From: Gammaproteobacteria bacterium
GTDB taxonomy: Bacteria > Pseudomonadota > Gammaproteobacteria > Pseudomonadales > Azotimanducaceae
NCBI GenBank assembly: GCA_026707905.1
Contig: JAPOVY010000090.1
Coordinates: 1-46,574 of the forward strand
Direction: 5' to 3'
Length of the DNA stretch: 46,574 bases
In this document: positions 33,856 to 42,004 of the stretch, in pieces
Layout: each line of letters begins with the position of its first letter
Numbering within the stretch: the first letter of the stretch is position 1
Made by a program: the position numbers and the translations under genes
Notes under the pieces: model-generated
What the model was told of the DNA's origin: nothing
The model's input: the letters and a program-made list of their open reading frames with translations, nothing else
The model's database searches: none

Positions 33856-34833
33856 TTAGTTTTCAGATCGTTCGGTCTGCAGTTTCATTTGGAGCATGGC
33901 TTGCATCATACGGATGGTCGGAGCGTCCACGTTCGCAAGCGAAGCTAATTCAAGGACGCCGTCCAATACAGCATTCGATTCAAGTGGTTTGCCTTGTAGG
34001 TAATCCTGCAACATCGAAGTCTTGTGCGGGCCTACCGAAGCAGCACCTTCTATCCGCTTGGGGATAGTCATTCCAAAGCGTGCGCCGTAGCGGGTGCCGA
34101 TCGCTTGAGTTTCTTCCATCAGTCGACTCGCGATAAATTGCGTCCCCGGATCCGTTGCGAGTTGATCTAATGTACCGCCGGTTAGCACACTCAGCGGGTT
34201 AAACGCCACGTTCCCCCATAGTTTGATCCATATTTCGTTCCTGATATCACGTCGAACGGAGGTGCGGCAATCTGCGTCTGAGAGAATGGCTGCGATTTTT
34301 TCAGTACGGTCCAAGTTGGTTTCCTTAGGTTCACCAATACTTATCCGGTTTCCAGAAACATGCTTCACCACACCTGGTGAGACGAGTTCAGCCGCGGGAT
34401 ATAGAACGCATCCGATTGCCCGTTCGGGACGTATTTCGTGCCAAATTCGACCATCGGGATCTACACTCTCTATTGGTTGTTCGTCTCGCTCCGAATCTAG
34501 CCCATAGAAAAACCACCATGGAACTCCGTTTACTGCAAAGAGCGTGACGGTGTTCTCATGAAGTAAACTCGTAAGATGCTCAAGTGCTGACGTAATCGAG
34601 TGAGCCTTCAACGTCACGATAATCAAGTCTTGCGCTGGGAGGTTGTCTTGTTCTCCGAATGCACTGACCGGAATCGTGTGAGTTCGGTTAGCCTCCGTGA
34701 GTCGTAAGCCTTTTTGCTTTAAGGCGTCAAGGTGAGCTCCGCGCGCAACGAGATTCGCTTGGTATCCAGCTCGGTAAAGACGTGCGGCTATCCAACAACC
34801 GATTGCGCCGGCGCCGTAAATACAAATATTCAA
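33856..34833 (-). CDS. 2-dehydropantoate 2-reductase family protein (ApbA/PanE)
   Basis: A 325-residue NADPH-dependent reductase of the ketopantoate reductase family. The Rossmann motif is IYGAGAIGCWIAARL, followed by VARGAHLDAL. The C-terminal helical domain has IRNEIWIKLWGNVAFNPLSVLTGGT, with the conserved Lys and Asn residues, and KTSMLQDYLQGKPLE. The start is TTG with a poor ribosome-binding site. Since panB/panC are absent and it is paired with an LLM oxidoreductase, it may reduce another 2-oxoacid and not serve pantothenate synthesis, so I do not assign panE. Confidence 0.85.
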   Translation of the reverse strand: MNICIYGAGAIGCWIAARLYRAGYQANLVARGAHLDALKQKGLRLTEANRTHTIPVSAFGEQDNLPAQDLIIVTLKAHSITSALEHLTSLLHENTVTLFAVNGVPWWFFYGLDSERDEQPIESVDPDGRIWHEIRPERAIGCVLYPAAELVSPGVVKHVSGNRISIGEPKETNLDRTEKIAAILSDADCRTSVRRDIRNEIWIKLWGNVAFNPLSVLTGGTLDQLATDPGTQFIASRLMEETQAIGTRYGARFGMTIPKRIEGAASVGPHKTSMLQDYLQGKPLESNAVLDGVLELASLANVDAPTIRMMQAMLQMKLQTERSEN

Positions 34834-35001: not shown

Positions 35002-38000
35002 ATGGCACTAATTAATCTCACCCAAACTGCGTGTCGGTGGTCTGTCTTTGCATTCTGTTCGTTGATGGTTGCTGGTTGTGGTGGCAGCGGAGGATCCGAC
35101 CCGGTCGCTCCGCCGCCCGAACCACCGATACAGATTTCCTATTCGATAAATGTCACTGCGGAGCCGGATACTGCCTCCGTTAGGGTCGGTCAAACAGCGG
35201 AAGCGTCGATCACATGGCACTTCACGTCCACCGCCGCAAATCCTTCCTCATCGAGTTACAACGTTTCGTCGACGACCGACGGCGTGCAGATTACGGGCGG
35301 CACGGGCACGTCGCTTCCAAACAATGACATTTCGACGTCGCTCCGCTATGAGTGTCCGTCTATTGAGACCGTTGTCGCGCAACTAACCGTGAGCGTTGAC
35401 TCGACTAATCGCAACGTCTCATGGGAGATCAACTGCACAGGTCAACGTATCACAGTCGAGTCAATCGAATCCTCGGTCGCTTCGATCGGCTTCGAAGCGC
35501 AGGCATCTCTGATCTGGCGGTTCGAGAGCATCGGTGAGGAACCAACCGAGCTTGAGTACACGGTAACCAGCAATGACGAATCAGTAACCGTAACGCCAAG
35601 TGAAGGTAGTGCTACGCCAGAGGAAAGTATCACGGTTGAAGTACGTTACATGTGTCAGACAGCTGGCGATGTGACGTTTGAATTGACAGCTAGCGTAGGG
35701 ACTGCCTCACAGGTAGCATCGTGGGTCGTGACTTGCACCGAAGAAGCAATTACTGTTGAGACGCCGCCAGCGATAGCGGTCGTCTCGATCGGTGATGAAG
35801 CAGTGTCTCAATTTACGTGGCTCTTTAGCTCCACCGGCAGTGAACCACGACACATACCTTATTCAGCTAGTACGGACTATGACGGAGTAACGATCACGGA
35901 TGCGATGGGTACCGCGTTACCCGAATCATCTGTAAATCATCAACTAGGTTTTCAGTGTGAAGTCCAGGGACTCGTCGAAATCGAACTGACGCTCACAGTC
36001 GGAAGCGACTCGCGGACGATCTCTTGGATTGTCGAGTGTACGATTGAGACGATTGAGATATTGAATTACCCGATGGCGAGTCATATCTCGGTTGGTGAGA
36101 GCGCCGCGCATGAATTGGTGTGGCAGTTCACTACTACAAGCGACAATGAGCGCACGTTCAGCTATTCGGTTGTTCCTGACAATCCGTCCGTAGGGGTAGC
36201 TGGTGGCGCTGGCGTTGCGTCGCCTGACAACGAATTGAGTACGCAGCTGATCTTTGCGTGTGAGTCGGCAGGGACCGTTCAAATTGATGTCGTGATTACG
36301 GTCGCCAATACGGTTGCGACAACGACTTGGCTAATCACCTGTTCAGAGGAATCGGTGGTAGTTGATCAGGCGCTTTCAGACCTATCGATATCCGTCGGAT
36401 CGGAAGGGGTATCTAGTTTCAGCTGGCGAGTCGAGACAACGGGTATTCAGAGTCGTATGTTCTCGTACTCTATCGAGTCGCGAAACGAAGCGTTGGAGAT
36501 ACATCCGAATCGAGGTCAGATTGGCGCGGAGGATATCGTCGTATCGAGAGTGTCCTATACCTGCACGGAGGCTGTGCAAGTCGGAATCTCGATAACGATC
36601 AACGTAGGTAGTGCATCGCATCCTCTGCTATGGCATGTCGAATGTAGTGAGGAGCAAATTGAAGTCGCTTCGTCGCCAACGGAAACAACAGTTGCATCCA
36701 CTGGTTCGACCACATCGATTGAGTTTCAGTGGTCAATCAGCTCGACAACGACCCGCGCGCGTTCGTTCCCATTCACAGTGATGTCAACGACCGCAGGTAT
36801 ACAGATCGTCTCGCCGACTGGCTTCATTTCAGCAGAAGAAGAACTCGTAACAGTCGTGAGTTATGAATGTCGTGAAGTCGGCATTACGGAAGCACTTATT
36901 GTGATCAGTGCAGGTAGTGCAACAAGCGAACTGACATGGTCGATTGAATGTAGTCAAGAGACCATCGAGATCGTCGATGCCCCTACACCGATATCGGTTT
37001 CCGTCGGGGAGTTTGCGAGCTCAACTATTCGCTGGCGCGCGAAGACAACAATCTCTTTTTTAGAGGAGTTGGACTATCTGATCAAGCCCGATCGTAGTGA
37101 ATTGACCGTGGAGCTGGCCACGGGTCGAATCGGAATTGATGAGGTCATCGAAACCAACATCGTGTTCGAATGCACAGCGCAAGCGCAACTCGTCTTTGAA
37201 ATTGCTATTGAAGTTGGAAATGCACGGCATGCACTTACTTGGATTGTCGAATGTACCACGGAGTCGATCGTATTTGAGTTAGATCCACTACCCGTGACAG
37301 CCGCAGAAGTTGGTGAGACGGCAAGGGTTGAACTGAACTGGCTACTGAATTCGACGGCTCACACCACGCGGGAATTTATGTATGAGATCACTACCAATTC
37401 ATTGAACGTACATATCAGTAACCCGACTGGGATGACGAAGCCGGGCGTAGCCATCAGCAATGACATCTCTTACGTGTGTCATGAATTAGGCGAGTTCGAT
37501 ATCGTGTTTTCTGTGACGGTTGGATCCACCAGCGCGGCTACTTCGTGGTCCGTCGCCTGTGCAAGGGAATATATCGCGGTGTTGACCGCACCGATGCAGC
37601 GGCAAGTTCCTGTTGGCGATAGCGTCACCGCGGAACTCGTATGGGAGTATCGGTCCCCTTCTACTAGCGAGGAAGTCCGGTACGAGATCAGTTCATCGAC
37701 TCGTGGTATTCAGATCCTCAACAGTAGAGGTACGGTACTTCCCGGTACGGAGGTTACGTCAAGATTGCGATTCCCGTGTTCTACTCGGCGCAATGTCACA
37801 GTCATGTTGCGGATTAGCGCGGGTGATATTTCTCGCGACTTACCTTGGCGGATTGAATGTGCGGGTGAAGACCTGACGCAATTTATCACCTCGTTTTTCC
37901 AAGGTCCACGGATTGGGGTGTTTCGATTTGAGTCAACAGCGGATGGATGGACGAGTTCAGCCGTAACCGAATCTGAAGAGGATTCTCACGACAGGCTTCA

Positions 38001-39327
38001 GTTCAGAACCAATAGGCAAGTATTCGTTGAAATCCGTACAGAACACAATGAGCTCGTACCGCTTCCAATTGCAGTTCAAATGGACGTTGGTACGAGCGGT
38101 TTCGTAGTTAATCAAATTGGCGAGGTCGAGACGAAGGTAAATGAGTCGGACGTAGGTTACAAGTACACAAGCACCTTCCTTTTCGACATTGCCGCTGGTA
38201 TATTCACAAGTCCAAGCAAGATTCAGGTTCTTGTTGACCCAGAATCGTTGTATCCAGAACTCGACGAAAGCAACAACACTGCCTCGTTCACCTTTGATGC
38301 ACGCAATACCTGGGAGTTACCGAAGTTGCATGTCACTTTCGTTCCAATTCGAACCCAAGACGGTGTACCGGATCTAAGCGACATCGAACCTTTTGTGCAG
38401 CCACTTTATGAGCTGATGCCAGTCGGTACGATCGAGGTTTCGATCGGTGAGGAATTAGACGCCGGCGACGTTTCGTGGACACTGGATACTAGCCGTGTCA
38501 TCCTCGATAGTCTTCACGTCCGTTACATGAGCTCGGCCGATTCAGATTCCTACTACCAAGGTATAGTGCGAAGACCGGAAGAAGTGGAAGTTAACTTATG
38601 CGGGAATGCATTCTTGGACGCGACTGTGAGCATCACTGTTGAACAATGTTCGCAGGATACCGGGGCGCACGAGCTCGGTCATAACTTCAATTTGAAGCAT
38701 GCGCCAGCGTGCGGCGCTGAGAATACAAATGTCGATTTGGACTTCCCGTATCCAGCCGGAAATATTGGGCGAGAAACGGGTTGGTTGATGCAACAAAAGC
38801 GCTTTATCGATGGCTCTGCGCCGAAAGAGTATGTCCAGCTGGAGTATCGTTATTACGACATCATGTCATATTGCCCAGAAACGTTCACAAGTCGCTATAG
38901 CTACGGTAAAGCGTTGGCCTACCTCAATCGAAAGTATCCGGTTCTTGCGTCGCTACCGCCGTACAAGCCGGTCGGCGCTGAGTACGCTAAGGTTCAAGAG
39001 CGAAGTGTTGTCCTTTCTGGGTTGGTCTCGCCAGAATCCAATTGGGAACTACGACACATCATGCTCGTTGACTTGAACCCAAAACGTTTTTACGCGTCGC
39101 CGACGGATCATTCCATCGCGGTTATTCACGAAGCAAGTGCCACTGTACTTCATCGAGAACCTTTACATGTCCTACGGGCAGCGCATGGGAACAACGAACA
39201 TTTGTCTTGGGGTGTTCGTCTCCCATACTTTGATAGCGATGACGTACACGTATACGTTGTCGATGAGGTCGATCGGATAATGCTAGAAGTTGACTTAGAC
39301 GCCCGGTTGCGAGCATTGACGCATTGA
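35002..39327 (+). CDS. Lipoprotein metzincin with nine two-cysteine beta repeats
   Basis: A 1441-residue lipoprotein with lipobox LMVAGC (Cys26) and a Gly/Pro-rich linker. Residues ~44-955 consist of nine repeats of about 101 residues. Each has a VSVGxxAxxxxxW opening, an S-Y/F-x-V strand, a mid-repeat C (YxC) and a closing WxIxC-x-E-x-I, so each probably carries one disulfide. A CARDB-like region follows (LVDPESLYPELDESNNTASF). The C-terminal protease-like domain has HELGHNFNLKH starting at 1223, with Asn instead of Gly at position eight, APACGAEN directly after, and a Met-turn DIMSYC (M1288). The start is ATG. It is homologous to the gene at 39827. Probably outer-membrane anchored and surface exposed; substrate unknown. 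Confidence 0.8.
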   Translation: MALINLTQTACRWSVFAFCSLMVAGCGGSGGSDPVAPPPEPPIQISYSINVTAEPDTASVRVGQTAEASITWHFTSTAANPSSSSYNVSSTTDGVQITGGTGTSLPNNDISTSLRYECPSIETVVAQLTVSVDSTNRNVSWEINCTGQRITVESIESSVASIGFEAQASLIWRFESIGEEPTELEYTVTSNDESVTVTPSEGSATPEESITVEVRYMCQTAGDVTFELTASVGTASQVASWVVTCTEEAITVETPPAIAVVSIGDEAVSQFTWLFSSTGSEPRHIPYSASTDYDGVTITDAMGTALPESSVNHQLGFQCEVQGLVEIELTLTVGSDSRTISWIVECTIETIEILNYPMASHISVGESAAHELVWQFTTTSDNERTFSYSVVPDNPSVGVAGGAGVASPDNELSTQLIFACESAGTVQIDVVITVANTVATTTWLITCSEESVVVDQALSDLSISVGSEGVSSFSWRVETTGIQSRMFSYSIESRNEALEIHPNRGQIGAEDIVVSRVSYTCTEAVQVGISITINVGSASHPLLWHVECSEEQIEVASSPTETTVASTGSTTSIEFQWSISSTTTRARSFPFTVMSTTAGIQIVSPTGFISAEEELVTVVSYECREVGITEALIVISAGSATSELTWSIECSQETIEIVDAPTPISVSVGEFASSTIRWRAKTTISFLEELDYLIKPDRSELTVELATGRIGIDEVIETNIVFECTAQAQLVFEIAIEVGNARHALTWIVECTTESIVFELDPLPVTAAEVGETARVELNWLLNSTAHTTREFMYEITTNSLNVHISNPTGMTKPGVAISNDISYVCHELGEFDIVFSVTVGSTSAATSWSVACAREYIAVLTAPMQRQVPVGDSVTAELVWEYRSPSTSEEVRYEISSSTRGIQILNSRGTVLPGTEVTSRLRFPCSTRRNVTVMLRISAGDISRDLPWRIECAGEDLTQFITSFFQGPRIGVFRFESTADGWTSSAVTESEEDSHDRLQFRTNRQVFVEIRTEHNELVPLPIAVQMDVGTSGFVVNQIGEVETKVNESDVGYKYTSTFLFDIAAGIFTSPSKIQVLVDPESLYPELDESNNTASFTFDARNTWELPKLHVTFVPIRTQDGVPDLSDIEPFVQPLYELMPVGTIEVSIGEELDAGDVSWTLDTSRVILDSLHVRYMSSADSDSYYQGIVRRPEEVEVNLCGNAFLDATVSITVEQCSQDTGAHELGHNFNLKHAPACGAENTNVDLDFPYPAGNIGRETGWLMQQKRFIDGSAPKEYVQLEYRYYDIMSYCPETFTSRYSYGKALAYLNRKYPVLASLPPYKPVGAEYAKVQERSVVLSGLVSPESNWELRHIMLVDLNPKRFYASPTDHSIAVIHEASATVLHREPLHVLRAAHGNNEHLSWGVRLPYFDSDDVHVYVVDEVDRIMLEVDLDARLRALTH
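35131..37870 (+). repeat. Nine tandem ~303-base coding repeats
   Basis: These encode the nine ~101-residue beta modules of the lipoprotein metzincin. The final Cys of repeat 1 is residue 145 and that of repeat 9 is residue 953, giving the period. They are conserved in protein pattern (W, two Cys, E-x-I) but well diverged in DNA, so the expansion is not recent. Confidence 0.8.
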
Positions 39328-39494: not shown

Positions 39495-39716
39495 ATGCAT
39501 ATATCTATCAAATATTGCACCTCTTGAGGGTATCGACCCAAAGCGGTCAGTTTGGCTGCAAAGTTTGAGTCGGAGCTCGGCGCGACAACGGAATTACTCG
39601 AAGGATCGGGTGGAATTTTCGACGTGCGATTGGATGATCGACTGGTCTTTTCCAAGCACGAAACGGGCGATTTCCCGAACGAAGACGCGCTTCTCGGAGA
39701 ACTAGCAACGCAGTAG
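39495..39716 (+). CDS. SelW-family (Rdx) selenoprotein with in-frame TGA selenocysteine
   Basis: A 73-residue thioredoxin-like protein whose TGA codon at 39525-39527 must be read as selenocysteine (U11). The N-terminus is MHISIKYCTSUGYRPKA, with the C-x-x-U redox motif at 8-11 followed by Gly-Tyr exactly as in SelW. After the TGA the frame stays open and gives LAAKFESELGA, then GSGGIFDVRLDDRLVFSK and TGDFPNE, the hallmark Rdx strands (GGxFxVxxDxxLxxSK). The stop is TAG at 39714. The ATG has GGA at 39485-39487 upstream. A SECIS-like hairpin lies just after the TGA. A conventional gene finder would miss it. SelW proteins are thought to act in glutathione- or thioredoxin-linked redox control. 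Confidence 0.88.
39525..39555 (+). promoter_or_regulatory. Selenocysteine codon with SECIS-like hairpin
   Basis: Beyond the TGA (39525-39527), CCAAA (39538-39542) pairs perfectly with TTTGG (39551-39555) around the loop GCGGTCAG. The loop exposes a GGU about 17 bases after the TGA. This fits the geometry known for bacterial SECIS elements, which bind SelB through a loop with one or two G residues. A competing small stem GGGT/ACCC (39528-39539) is also possible. Confidence 0.6.
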
Positions 39717-39826
39717 TCGGTCCGCCGACACGCGCATCGAGCAAACGAGGATCAAACGCCTCGTAGGGCGAAGCTGCGGCACTTAACCGCGTGCCAGCAC
39801 ATTCTTTTCCAGAATTGAGGTAACTA

Positions 39827-42004
39827 TTGCTGCGAATATCGCTGACGTGGACGAGGCTATTCGCGTTGTTAAGCCTTGGCGCGATTCTCGTTGCTTGTGG
39901 AGGAAGCGGTGGCGGGGGGCCAACTCCGCCACCCCCACCTCCGCCGCCACCGCCACCGACAAATATCACCTATTCAATTGAGGTCGCTTCGGGTCCAACC
40001 GAAGTCACAGCATCAGTCGGGGAATCAACGGAAACCTCGGTGACGTGGTCGTTTACTGCTTCTGTATCGGATGCGCCGTCGACGAGTTACTCCGTGACAT
40101 CGGGAACGTCGGGTGTTCAGATTACAGGCGGCTCAGGAAGTGTGGTACCTGGAACTTCAATCAATACTCGACTTGCTTTTACATGTTCGACAGCTGGGAC
40201 AATCCAAGCGGAGATCACGTTCGCGGTAGGTTCGACAACTGAAAACGCAACATGGACGATCGGTTGTACAGAAGAACAGATCACTTTCGAGCCGCTCGCA
40301 GAAGTCAGGATCGAACAAGGTGACGCCGCTCGTGCAACTTTAACGTGGCGTTTTCAAACGACGGGTGATTCGACACGCTCTTTCGATTACGAGCTCCTTC
40401 CGGAGACAGACCGACTACAGCTAACAAACGCATCTGGAACTTCGCCTCCTGATACTGAAATCGAAAGCACGCTTCGATACGCTTGTTCTGAGGTCGGGGT
40501 TTTCGTAATCGCGCTGCAGATTCAGGTCGGTAGTGCAACGCAACGAGTTGAATGGATGGTGGCGTGTACGGTAGAAGATATACAGTCGTTGACCATGCAA
40601 TTCCATCAAGGACCGTTGATTGAACATGTCGAATTTACGTTAGTCAATGACCAATGGCAGATGGAGGTTGTTCCTTTGTTCTACACTGGACAACGACCCT
40701 TGCGACTTGGTTCAAATCGGCAGGCATTCGTGACGATCAGTTTTGAATCTGAGGTCGAAAGCGAACTCGATATTGCACTTGAATCTTCGAATACAGCAGA
40801 AGATGTGGTGATCGAACGGATCAGTGCGAGTAATGCCGTACCGAATCTTTCAGGTACGCGCACGAACTATATTCGTCGTATCGTATTCGACGTTACTGCT
40901 GATGATCTTTCAACATTAGCGACGCTACATATTCGTATTGATCCCGATGACGCTATTCCTCAACGAAATGAGGGGAATAATGAGATTGCATTTGACGTTA
41001 CTAATTTAGAGATCATCGAGTTGCCTCATCTGAGGTTGACGCTCTTTCCGATACGTTCAAGCAATGGTGAACCGGACCTGAGCGATACGAGCTTTTACGT
41101 TGATGTTCTCTATGAATTGTTACCGATCGGTACCTATTCAGTGAACGTCGGTGAAACAATTGACATAAGGTCGGAAGGACCATTCGACGCTGAAGTTGCA
41201 CTCGATGCCATATTTGATCGCTGGATTGAAAGTGGCGACCGTAATGAGTTTTACCACGGTATCTTCACCCCACCTGAAGCTGTCGAGGTCTGTGGACTCG
41301 CTCATGTTGCAGGAAACTCGGGTGCTACGGGTGAGTCAAACACACGATGTTCGGAGAATACGTTCGCTCATGAAATGGGACACAATTTATCGTTGAATCA
41401 TGCTCCCGCTTGCGGCGCGGAGAATGCCAATCCTGACCCAGACTTTCCGTATGCGGATGGGTCGATTGGCACTGAAAGCGGCTGGTTGATGCGCAAGAGG
41501 CGGCCGATCGGAGAAGCTGGGATCACGACATCAAAGATATACGATACGATGTCATATTGCCTTGAGACGTTCACCAGTCAATACAGCTACGGTAGAGCAA
41601 ATGACTACTTTTTACGGCGCTTTGGCACAACCGTAGCTGCTTCGGAAGTACCGTCGCCTAAAGTTACAGGTTTCGAACTCGTCGAAGGTCGAAGCCTTGC
41701 TCTTCTAGGTTTCTACTCAACGACAGAAGGCTGGCATCTGGAAAAAGCTACGTACGTCGAAAAACCGCCGTTGTCACGCATATTAGATGATTCTGAATTC
41801 GAATTGCAGCTGATTCACACCGCGTCGGGTACGCGTCTGTATCGTGAGAACTTTCATTTAATGGTCGTTGCTCACGGCAATCCTGAGAAAAAGGTATGGG
41901 GATTACGCGTACCAGCATTTGCGGCGTCGGGTCTACATATAGCTATTGTGGATAACGAAGGTAGAGTAATGTTGGAACACGCAATTGAAGGTGAAGCCGA
42001 CTAG
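39827..42004 (+). CDS. Lipoprotein metzincin with two two-cysteine beta repeats
   Basis: A 725-residue paralogue of the lipoprotein at 35002. The start is TTG with GAGG at 39817-39820, six bases upstream. It gives a lipoprotein signal ending AILVAC (Cys24), then a Gly- and Pro-run linker. Two ~100-residue repeats of the same two-Cys type follow, then a linker region with a CARDB-like strand pair (IRIDPDDAIPQRNEGNNEIAF). The protease-like domain has HEMGHNLSLNH at 515-525, with Ser instead of Gly at position eight, APACGAEN again, and a Met-turn TMSYC (M575). Both copies share the C-terminal tail. It probably acts at the outer membrane. Confidence 0.82.
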   Translation: MLRISLTWTRLFALLSLGAILVACGGSGGGGPTPPPPPPPPPPPTNITYSIEVASGPTEVTASVGESTETSVTWSFTASVSDAPSTSYSVTSGTSGVQITGGSGSVVPGTSINTRLAFTCSTAGTIQAEITFAVGSTTENATWTIGCTEEQITFEPLAEVRIEQGDAARATLTWRFQTTGDSTRSFDYELLPETDRLQLTNASGTSPPDTEIESTLRYACSEVGVFVIALQIQVGSATQRVEWMVACTVEDIQSLTMQFHQGPLIEHVEFTLVNDQWQMEVVPLFYTGQRPLRLGSNRQAFVTISFESEVESELDIALESSNTAEDVVIERISASNAVPNLSGTRTNYIRRIVFDVTADDLSTLATLHIRIDPDDAIPQRNEGNNEIAFDVTNLEIIELPHLRLTLFPIRSSNGEPDLSDTSFYVDVLYELLPIGTYSVNVGETIDIRSEGPFDAEVALDAIFDRWIESGDRNEFYHGIFTPPEAVEVCGLAHVAGNSGATGESNTRCSENTFAHEMGHNLSLNHAPACGAENANPDPDFPYADGSIGTESGWLMRKRRPIGEAGITTSKIYDTMSYCLETFTSQYSYGRANDYFLRRFGTTVAASEVPSPKVTGFELVEGRSLALLGFYSTTEGWHLEKATYVEKPPLSRILDDSEFELQLIHTASGTRLYRENFHLMVVAHGNPEKKVWGLRVPAFAASGLHIAIVDNEGRVMLEHAIEGEAD
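39965..40580 (+). repeat. Two ~300-base coding repeats of the two-cysteine beta module
   Basis: These encode two modules homologous to the nine in the upstream paralogue, each with the central W, a mid-repeat Cys and the closing W-x-x-x-C pattern. Confidence 0.75.

Follow-up and report, generated by a model that had tools for sequence, protein, structure and literature searches.

SelW-like proteins are a common and already known marine selenoprotein family. According to PMC1088965, they outnumber every other selenoprotein family in the Sargasso Sea set, with 48 genes, and 427 Sec and 56 Cys SelW-like sequences are recorded for GOS in PMC2398784. The constraints that a bacterial SECIS (bSECIS) hairpin follows have likewise been published (PMC13188914), including an energy of -7.5 kcal/mol, and these are the ones applied here. 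The stretch of DNA analysed, hereafter the window, is 46,574 nucleotides long, and we place at roughly 97% the probability that its positions 39495-39716 are a SelW/Rdx gene in which selenocysteine (Sec) is the predicted reading of the TGA at 39525-39527, giving a 73-residue product that is likely a small C-x-x-U redox protein. The features on which the discussion turns are the following.

39495..39716, + strand: selW-like gene of 73 codons plus TAG
39516..39518, + strand: TGC, Cys8 of the C-x-x-U motif (all 101 loci read encode Cys here, 96 of them by TGC, 5 by TGT)
39525..39527, + strand: in-frame TGA, predicted Sec codon, position 11 (U11)
39543..39559, + strand: predicted hairpin of the bacterial SECIS type with stem GCGGUCA/UGGCUGC and loop GUU (39550-39552), from pairing, covariation, RNAalifold and energies
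39552..39716, + strand: 54-aa stub predicted instead of the gene (P0002 in the protein database), with its TTG start where the SECIS loop ends
39547..39969, - strand: 140-aa shadow ORF from a mechanical ORF list, judged no gene

Translated with TGA as U, 39495-39716 reads MHISIKYCTSUGYRPKAVSLAAKFESELGATTELLEGSGGIFDVRLDDRLVFSKHETGDFPNEDALLGELATQ and stops at the TAG of 39714-39716, in agreement with an earlier note on this DNA, which had described a frame from ATG 39495 through YCTS-TGA-GYRPKA to that TAG. The 73-codon frame contains exactly one in-frame TGA, located in the C-x-x-TGA motif, and ATG 39495 is the earliest ATG that it can use because another in-frame TGA lies two codons upstream; the Shine-Dalgarno sequence before this ATG was judged by eye to be weak. 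When both strands of the whole window were scanned for a TGA preceded, three codons earlier, by a Cys codon, with an ATG no more than 39 codons upstream and 62 or more open codons behind it, this site was the sole match, and the presence of a SelW-like frame with an in-frame TGA is confirmed as a real observation, beyond chance. The SelW/Rdx identity proposed in the earlier note was upheld by two profiles, Pfam Rdx (PF10262; 61.9 bits against a cut-off of 22.6, E 6.6e-17) and TIGR02174 for the SelT/SelW/SelH subfamily (57.6 bits against 34.2, E 1.1e-15), while the narrower, Campylobacter-type equivalog NF041051 (SelTWH_Campy) scored 76.7 bits, below its 88-bit cut-off, and the gene is not assigned to it.

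An AlphaFold model calculated from a 57-row alignment, with U entered as C, reached a mean pLDDT of 89 and a pTM of 0.73, and placed a strand at residues 2-8, a helix at 14-28, strands at 31-37, 42-46 and 49-53, and helices at 54-57 and 63-72. The best Foldseek matches of this model were the SelW-related crystal structures 2fa8, 3dex, 2ojl, 2obk, 2oka and 2p0g (TMq 0.76-0.88), followed by mouse SelW 2npb (TMq 0.65, E 1.8e-4) and MIEN1, and then by thioredoxins. The C-x-x-U/C motif follows the first strand of the predicted thioredoxin-like fold, as is expected of SelW/Rdx proteins, and both C8 and position 11 are invariant in the 57 sequences of alignment A2, as is Tyr13 in the 57-row alignment. 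One detail of the earlier note has to be corrected, since the C-x-x-U-G-Y context that it regarded as diagnostic is not the usual one: the residue after U is more often Asn (39 of 74 distinct relatives) than Gly (26 of 74).

A C-x-x-U motif on a thioredoxin-like fold is likely a thiol/selenol redox site, and by analogy with SelW either glutathione or thioredoxin might be its redox partner. A protein that carries Sec and yet is no SelW-like redox enzyme in vivo, but for example a protein-binding adaptor or a selenium store, appears unlikely, though it deserves consideration, given that PMC1088965 states the function of bacterial SelW-like proteins to be unclear and that no functional neighbour was conserved beyond the closest clade in the 1.5-4.5 kb flanks compared. 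The invariance of C-x-x-U behind strand 1 of the predicted fold in the 57 aligned sequences, an arrangement typical of redox active sites, argues for the redox reading, and PMC1088965 likewise takes the motif as suggestive of a redox function and reports an interaction of the protein with glutathione.

The gene neighbourhood gives no functional clue, as relatives of the two genes flanking selW were found only in five loci (L051-L055) within the flanks compared. These two genes, at 35002-39327 and 39827-42004 of the window, are homologous to each other; an Ig-like domain (PF24798) in the upstream gene and Peptidase_M66 and Reprolysin_3 in the downstream gene score over their Pfam cut-offs. The downstream gene is kept in all five loci, and the long upstream gene adjoins selW in L051, L054 and L055 (best segments 66%, 41% and 38% identity, respectively), with relatives of window 33856-34833, of the ketopantoate reductase family, as the nearest matched frames in L052 and L053.

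Conservation of the TGA was followed in two overlapping sets of loci. A selW profile search across 58 genomes, the own genome and its relatives, gave 34 matches in 33 genomes (G020 has one with TGA and one without); exactly one TGA lies inside the match in 29 of the 33, own included, and the remaining four (G042, G043, G051 and G056) have weak matches with no stop inside. A scan of the genome_contigs set returned 71 loci, each of them with the TGA. These 71 and 30 of the 34 matches, with TGA in 29 of the 30, make up the 101 loci read, which correspond to 93 distinct stretches. Codon 11 is TGA in 92 of these 93, own included, the exception being the distant TGT form of L050 in G042, and the frame continues past the site in the 101 loci. 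Close homologues frameshifted at the same place, which the earlier note had named as grounds for abandoning the reading, did not appear. Differences from five close relatives (L022-L026) are mostly synonymous both upstream and downstream of the TGA. Against L022, synonymous differences number 6.0 over 5.7 sites in the nine codons before the TGA and 17.7 over 37.2 sites in the 50 codons that follow the hairpin, compared with nonsynonymous differences of 1.0 over 21.3 sites and 2.3 over 112.8 sites, respectively. On these counts, the constraint before the TGA is not accounted for by a stub starting at TTG 39552.

Such data bear directly on whether the TGA might be a true stop, in which case a Cys-type Rdx gene would have decayed here to a pseudogene, or the stretch would encode a short 54-aa protein from TTG 39552. 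TGA does serve as an ordinary stop elsewhere in the window, and the 54-aa stub is present in the protein database. A pseudogene is nevertheless rejected in view of the conserved TGA, the frame that continues behind it in the loci read and the mostly synonymous differences in the nine codons before it; the stub is rejected as the true product as it would miss the first strand of the fold and the C-x-x-U motif, and we regard termination at this TGA as very improbable overall.

By record title, TGA-type SelW occurs in Gammaproteobacteria/Pseudomonadales, Desulfopila, Desulfuromonas, Planctomycetes and Verrucomicrobia, with single titles from other groups. The nearest named relative seen, in a search that may omit the window's own genome, was JAPOVV010000110.1 (Gammaproteobacteria bacterium COS1_bin_8), with 95% identity. 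The Pseudohongiella contig OX638341.1 carries two TGA-type SelW copies about 5.5 kb apart (L078:3031 and L086:3031).

The SECIS hairpin, as judged from sequence comparison, is the strongest evidence added to the observations of the earlier note. It begins 15 nt downstream of the TGA, and when the TGA and the 45 bases of 100 TGA loci were collapsed to 74 distinct sequences, a 7-bp stem with a 3-base loop was found at a fixed place, the loop lying 22 nt past the TGA; RNAalifold returned exactly the helix 39543-39559. Paired states make up 99.0% of the 518 pair cells of the 74 sequences, versus 91.0% in shuffles, and cells changed on both sides number 39, a figure that none of 500 shuffles attains (15.1 +/- 2.3), with 0-1 such cells in the six slid controls. 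Five covariation measures were used in all, and two of them are indistinct from shuffles, namely pairs changed on both sides (2, reached by 183 of 500 shuffles) and further pair types (8, reached by 39 of 500). In the main covarying pair, the third codon positions of Ala17 and Ala21 face each other, and its changes are silent for the protein because Ala is kept in 74 of 74 sequences at both places and only third positions are involved; the types observed are G-U 34, C-G 28, U-A 5, G-C 3, A-U 1 and U-G 1, with 2 unpaired. These covariation counts are inflated by kinship. A tree built without the SECIS columns, itself poorly resolved, requires at least 17 changes of pair type, and a tree-based independence test offers 4 well-supported pairs (3 concordant, 0 discordant, 1 unchanged), a sample too small to reach significance.

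Folding energies of single sequences give a mixed picture. The 17 nt alone fold at -7.1 kcal/mol (z -3.5, a value matched by 0 of 200 shuffles), which just misses the published -7.5, a value that only longer stretches pass. Those of 40-49 nt after the UGA reach -14.0 to -15.1 kcal/mol (z -1.9 to -3.0), and the longest one folded, of 58 nt, is unremarkable (z -1.24, equalled by 24 of 200 shuffles). The 7-bp stem, the 3-nt loop GUU with G as its first base, the distance of 22 nt from the UGA and a 45-nt region at -14.0 kcal/mol all agree with the bSECIS constraints. Under a single-sequence rule, a bSECIS-like fold is present in 87 of the 92 TGA stretches (L041, L083, L089, L090 and L092 fail) versus 3 of 17 Cys homologues, L050 included. 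A second exact copy of the hairpin was not found in the own genome, where two near matches have one mismatch each: the one in L134 has no TGA at equal spacing, and that in L135 has a TGA but, by eye, a broken stem and a stop about 14 codons later, and both were discarded. Within the window, no RNA family reached its gathering score, and a tRNA was likewise not detected.

The earlier note predicted that this organism has SelA, SelB, SelC and SelD, and it took the absence of all sel genes as a reason to give up the reading. In the own genome, 93% complete in 157 contigs and gammaproteobacterial as judged from its nearest relatives, the prediction proved correct, each component scoring over its curated cut-off: selA (536 bits, C125:2412-3728) and selB (405 bits, C125:3767-5623) are adjacent on one contig, selD reaches 263 bits, and a tRNA-Sec (71 bits, C56:46831-46920), with anticodon TCA according to ARAGORN, is the sole match over the cut-off. 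SelD carries Cys, not Sec, as seen by eye. The selD match is the C-terminal part of a 740-aa protein (L018:292-2514), the N-terminal part of which looks by eye like an FAD/NAD(P) oxidoreductase. A selA match is present in 41 of the 58 genomes, over the cut-off in 39, and in all 37 genomes of the window's family, in G032 and G034 only as pieces below the cut-off. TGA-SelW is found in 29 of the 41 genomes with selA and in none of the 17 that lack a selA match (Fisher p 5e-7, uncorrected for kinship), and 8 of the 37 family genomes have a selA match and no SelW match.

Locally, a genome that had reassigned TGA throughout to a standard amino acid would present the same picture of a conserved gene with a TGA in its frame. 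Such a variant genetic code seems more improbable still than a true stop and is rejected, inasmuch as TGA ends 10 of the 28 window ORFs of at least 200 aa, with another stop within 21 codons in 9 of those 10, and the matches to selA, selB, selD and formate dehydrogenase alpha in the own genome have no stop inside; the bSECIS-like hairpin and the tRNA-Sec also argue against it.

Outside the window, the same genome has a second predicted selenoprotein gene, a Prx-like AhpC/TSA gene (C133:7397-8020; L130:1354-1980) with one TGA in N-W-U-L-Y-C and a hairpin UCAGCU-CGUGC-AGCUGA behind it. All 20 loci read, the own one among them, have this TGA at an identical codon, and 34 of the 37 family genomes have a Prx-like match (E 2e-14 or better) with TGA inside, its position having been checked in the 20 loci. 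The Sec machinery therefore likely serves at least two genes. Both genes have the TGA in a conserved frame with a hairpin behind, but the Prx-like one belongs to the AhpC/TSA family and differs in its U-x-x-C order and in a CGUGC loop instead of GUU. Six genomes of the same genus (G002, G005, G008, G009, G012 and G014) show two neighbouring Prx-like matches with a TGA inside, separated by less than 1 kb, an arrangement that resembles a tandem duplication. The CMD/AhpD family gave no match in the own genome.

Taken together, the conserved frame, the pairing and covariation of the hairpin, and the sel genes with tRNA-Sec predict Sec insertion at TGA 39525-39527. In the proposed mechanism, SelD would make selenophosphate, SelA would turn Ser-tRNA-Sec into Sec-tRNA-Sec, and SelB, bound to the hairpin 39543-39559, would deliver the latter to the ribosome at the UGA, after which translation would continue to TAG 39714; should SelB fail, the chain would end at the UGA after 10 residues.

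It was also anticipated in the earlier note that standard annotation would leave this stretch blank or call frames on the other strand. In effect the gene is indeed missed, although the miscall seen is neither a blank nor an opposite-strand frame but the 54-aa stub on the same strand. A word-based search of 5.8 billion protein sequences returned six proteins, every one a stub of 50 or 54 aa that starts downstream of the TGA; the stub of the window itself is among the six. The 140-aa shadow ORF on the opposite strand does exist, the loci compared giving a single partial match to it (54% over 68 residues), and opposite-strand frames like it lie at or near selW in 25 of 56 loci compared; it is rejected as a gene and taken as a by-product of conserved codons. 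A complete gene for a predicted selenium-dependent redox protein is in this way reduced by gene callers to a tail devoid of its active site. The locus is also a clear case of silent codon positions that covary to keep a SECIS stem, which offers an easy check, from sequence alone, for Sec codons in metagenomic bins.

Rdx proteins of the Cys type from Gammaproteobacteria offer a comparison. A class-wide sample of 370 genomes contained 55 with an Rdx match, with TGA in 4 (own, G401, G135 and G410) and no stop in 51; 19 of the 54 other matches were read (L136-L154), 3 with TGA and 16 with Cys codons. The CxxC forms (16 of the 19 loci) are found by the same profile as the window gene but have TGC or TGT at the Sec position, few bSECIS-like folds (the 3 of 17 mentioned above), and a segment after the motif of the R-W/F-x-L-R-A/S-x-W-x-A/T-Q-E type, where the window lineage has Y-x-P-K-A-V-S-L-A-A. 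The three TGA-type SelW loci from other families of the class (L136, L143 and L146) have a different SECIS-like hairpin at the same place (CCCUC-CGGGU-GAGGG, CGCUCUC-CGUGC-GAGAGCG and GCUC-CGUGU-GAGC) and an A-L-R peptide at the hairpin, and the Cys forms have neither A-L-R nor the peptide of the window lineage. This comparison of Sec and Cys forms suggests, short of proof, that the peptide after the motif is shaped by the hairpin. We would speculate further, tentatively and with the odds somewhat against us, that the RNA hairpin, not the protein, dictates A-V-S-L-A in this Sec-type SelW lineage, a self-contained Sec cassette that would be locked into Sec by its stem and would have passed nearly letter for letter among Gammaproteobacteria, Desulfopila/Desulfuromonas, Planctomycetes and Verrucomicrobia, while the lineage of L136, L143 and L146 would have replaced hairpin and peptide together (A-L-R, with CGGGU, CGUGC and CGUGU loops).

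With mouse SelW (2npb) the window gene has the Rdx fold (sequence E 0.0013, Foldseek E 1.8e-4) and the C-x-x-U motif in common. A difference is that SECIS elements of eukaryotes are located in the 3' UTR, according to PMC1088965, whereas the hairpin of the window gene is part of the coding frame. As both the family and the mechanism are already known, the advance is one of annotation and not of concept: the window gene resembles the described bacterial SelW-like selenoproteins (Rdx) in family match, C-x-x-U, length, predicted fold and TGA with a downstream bSECIS, and differs from them only in its host lineage and its individual sequence.
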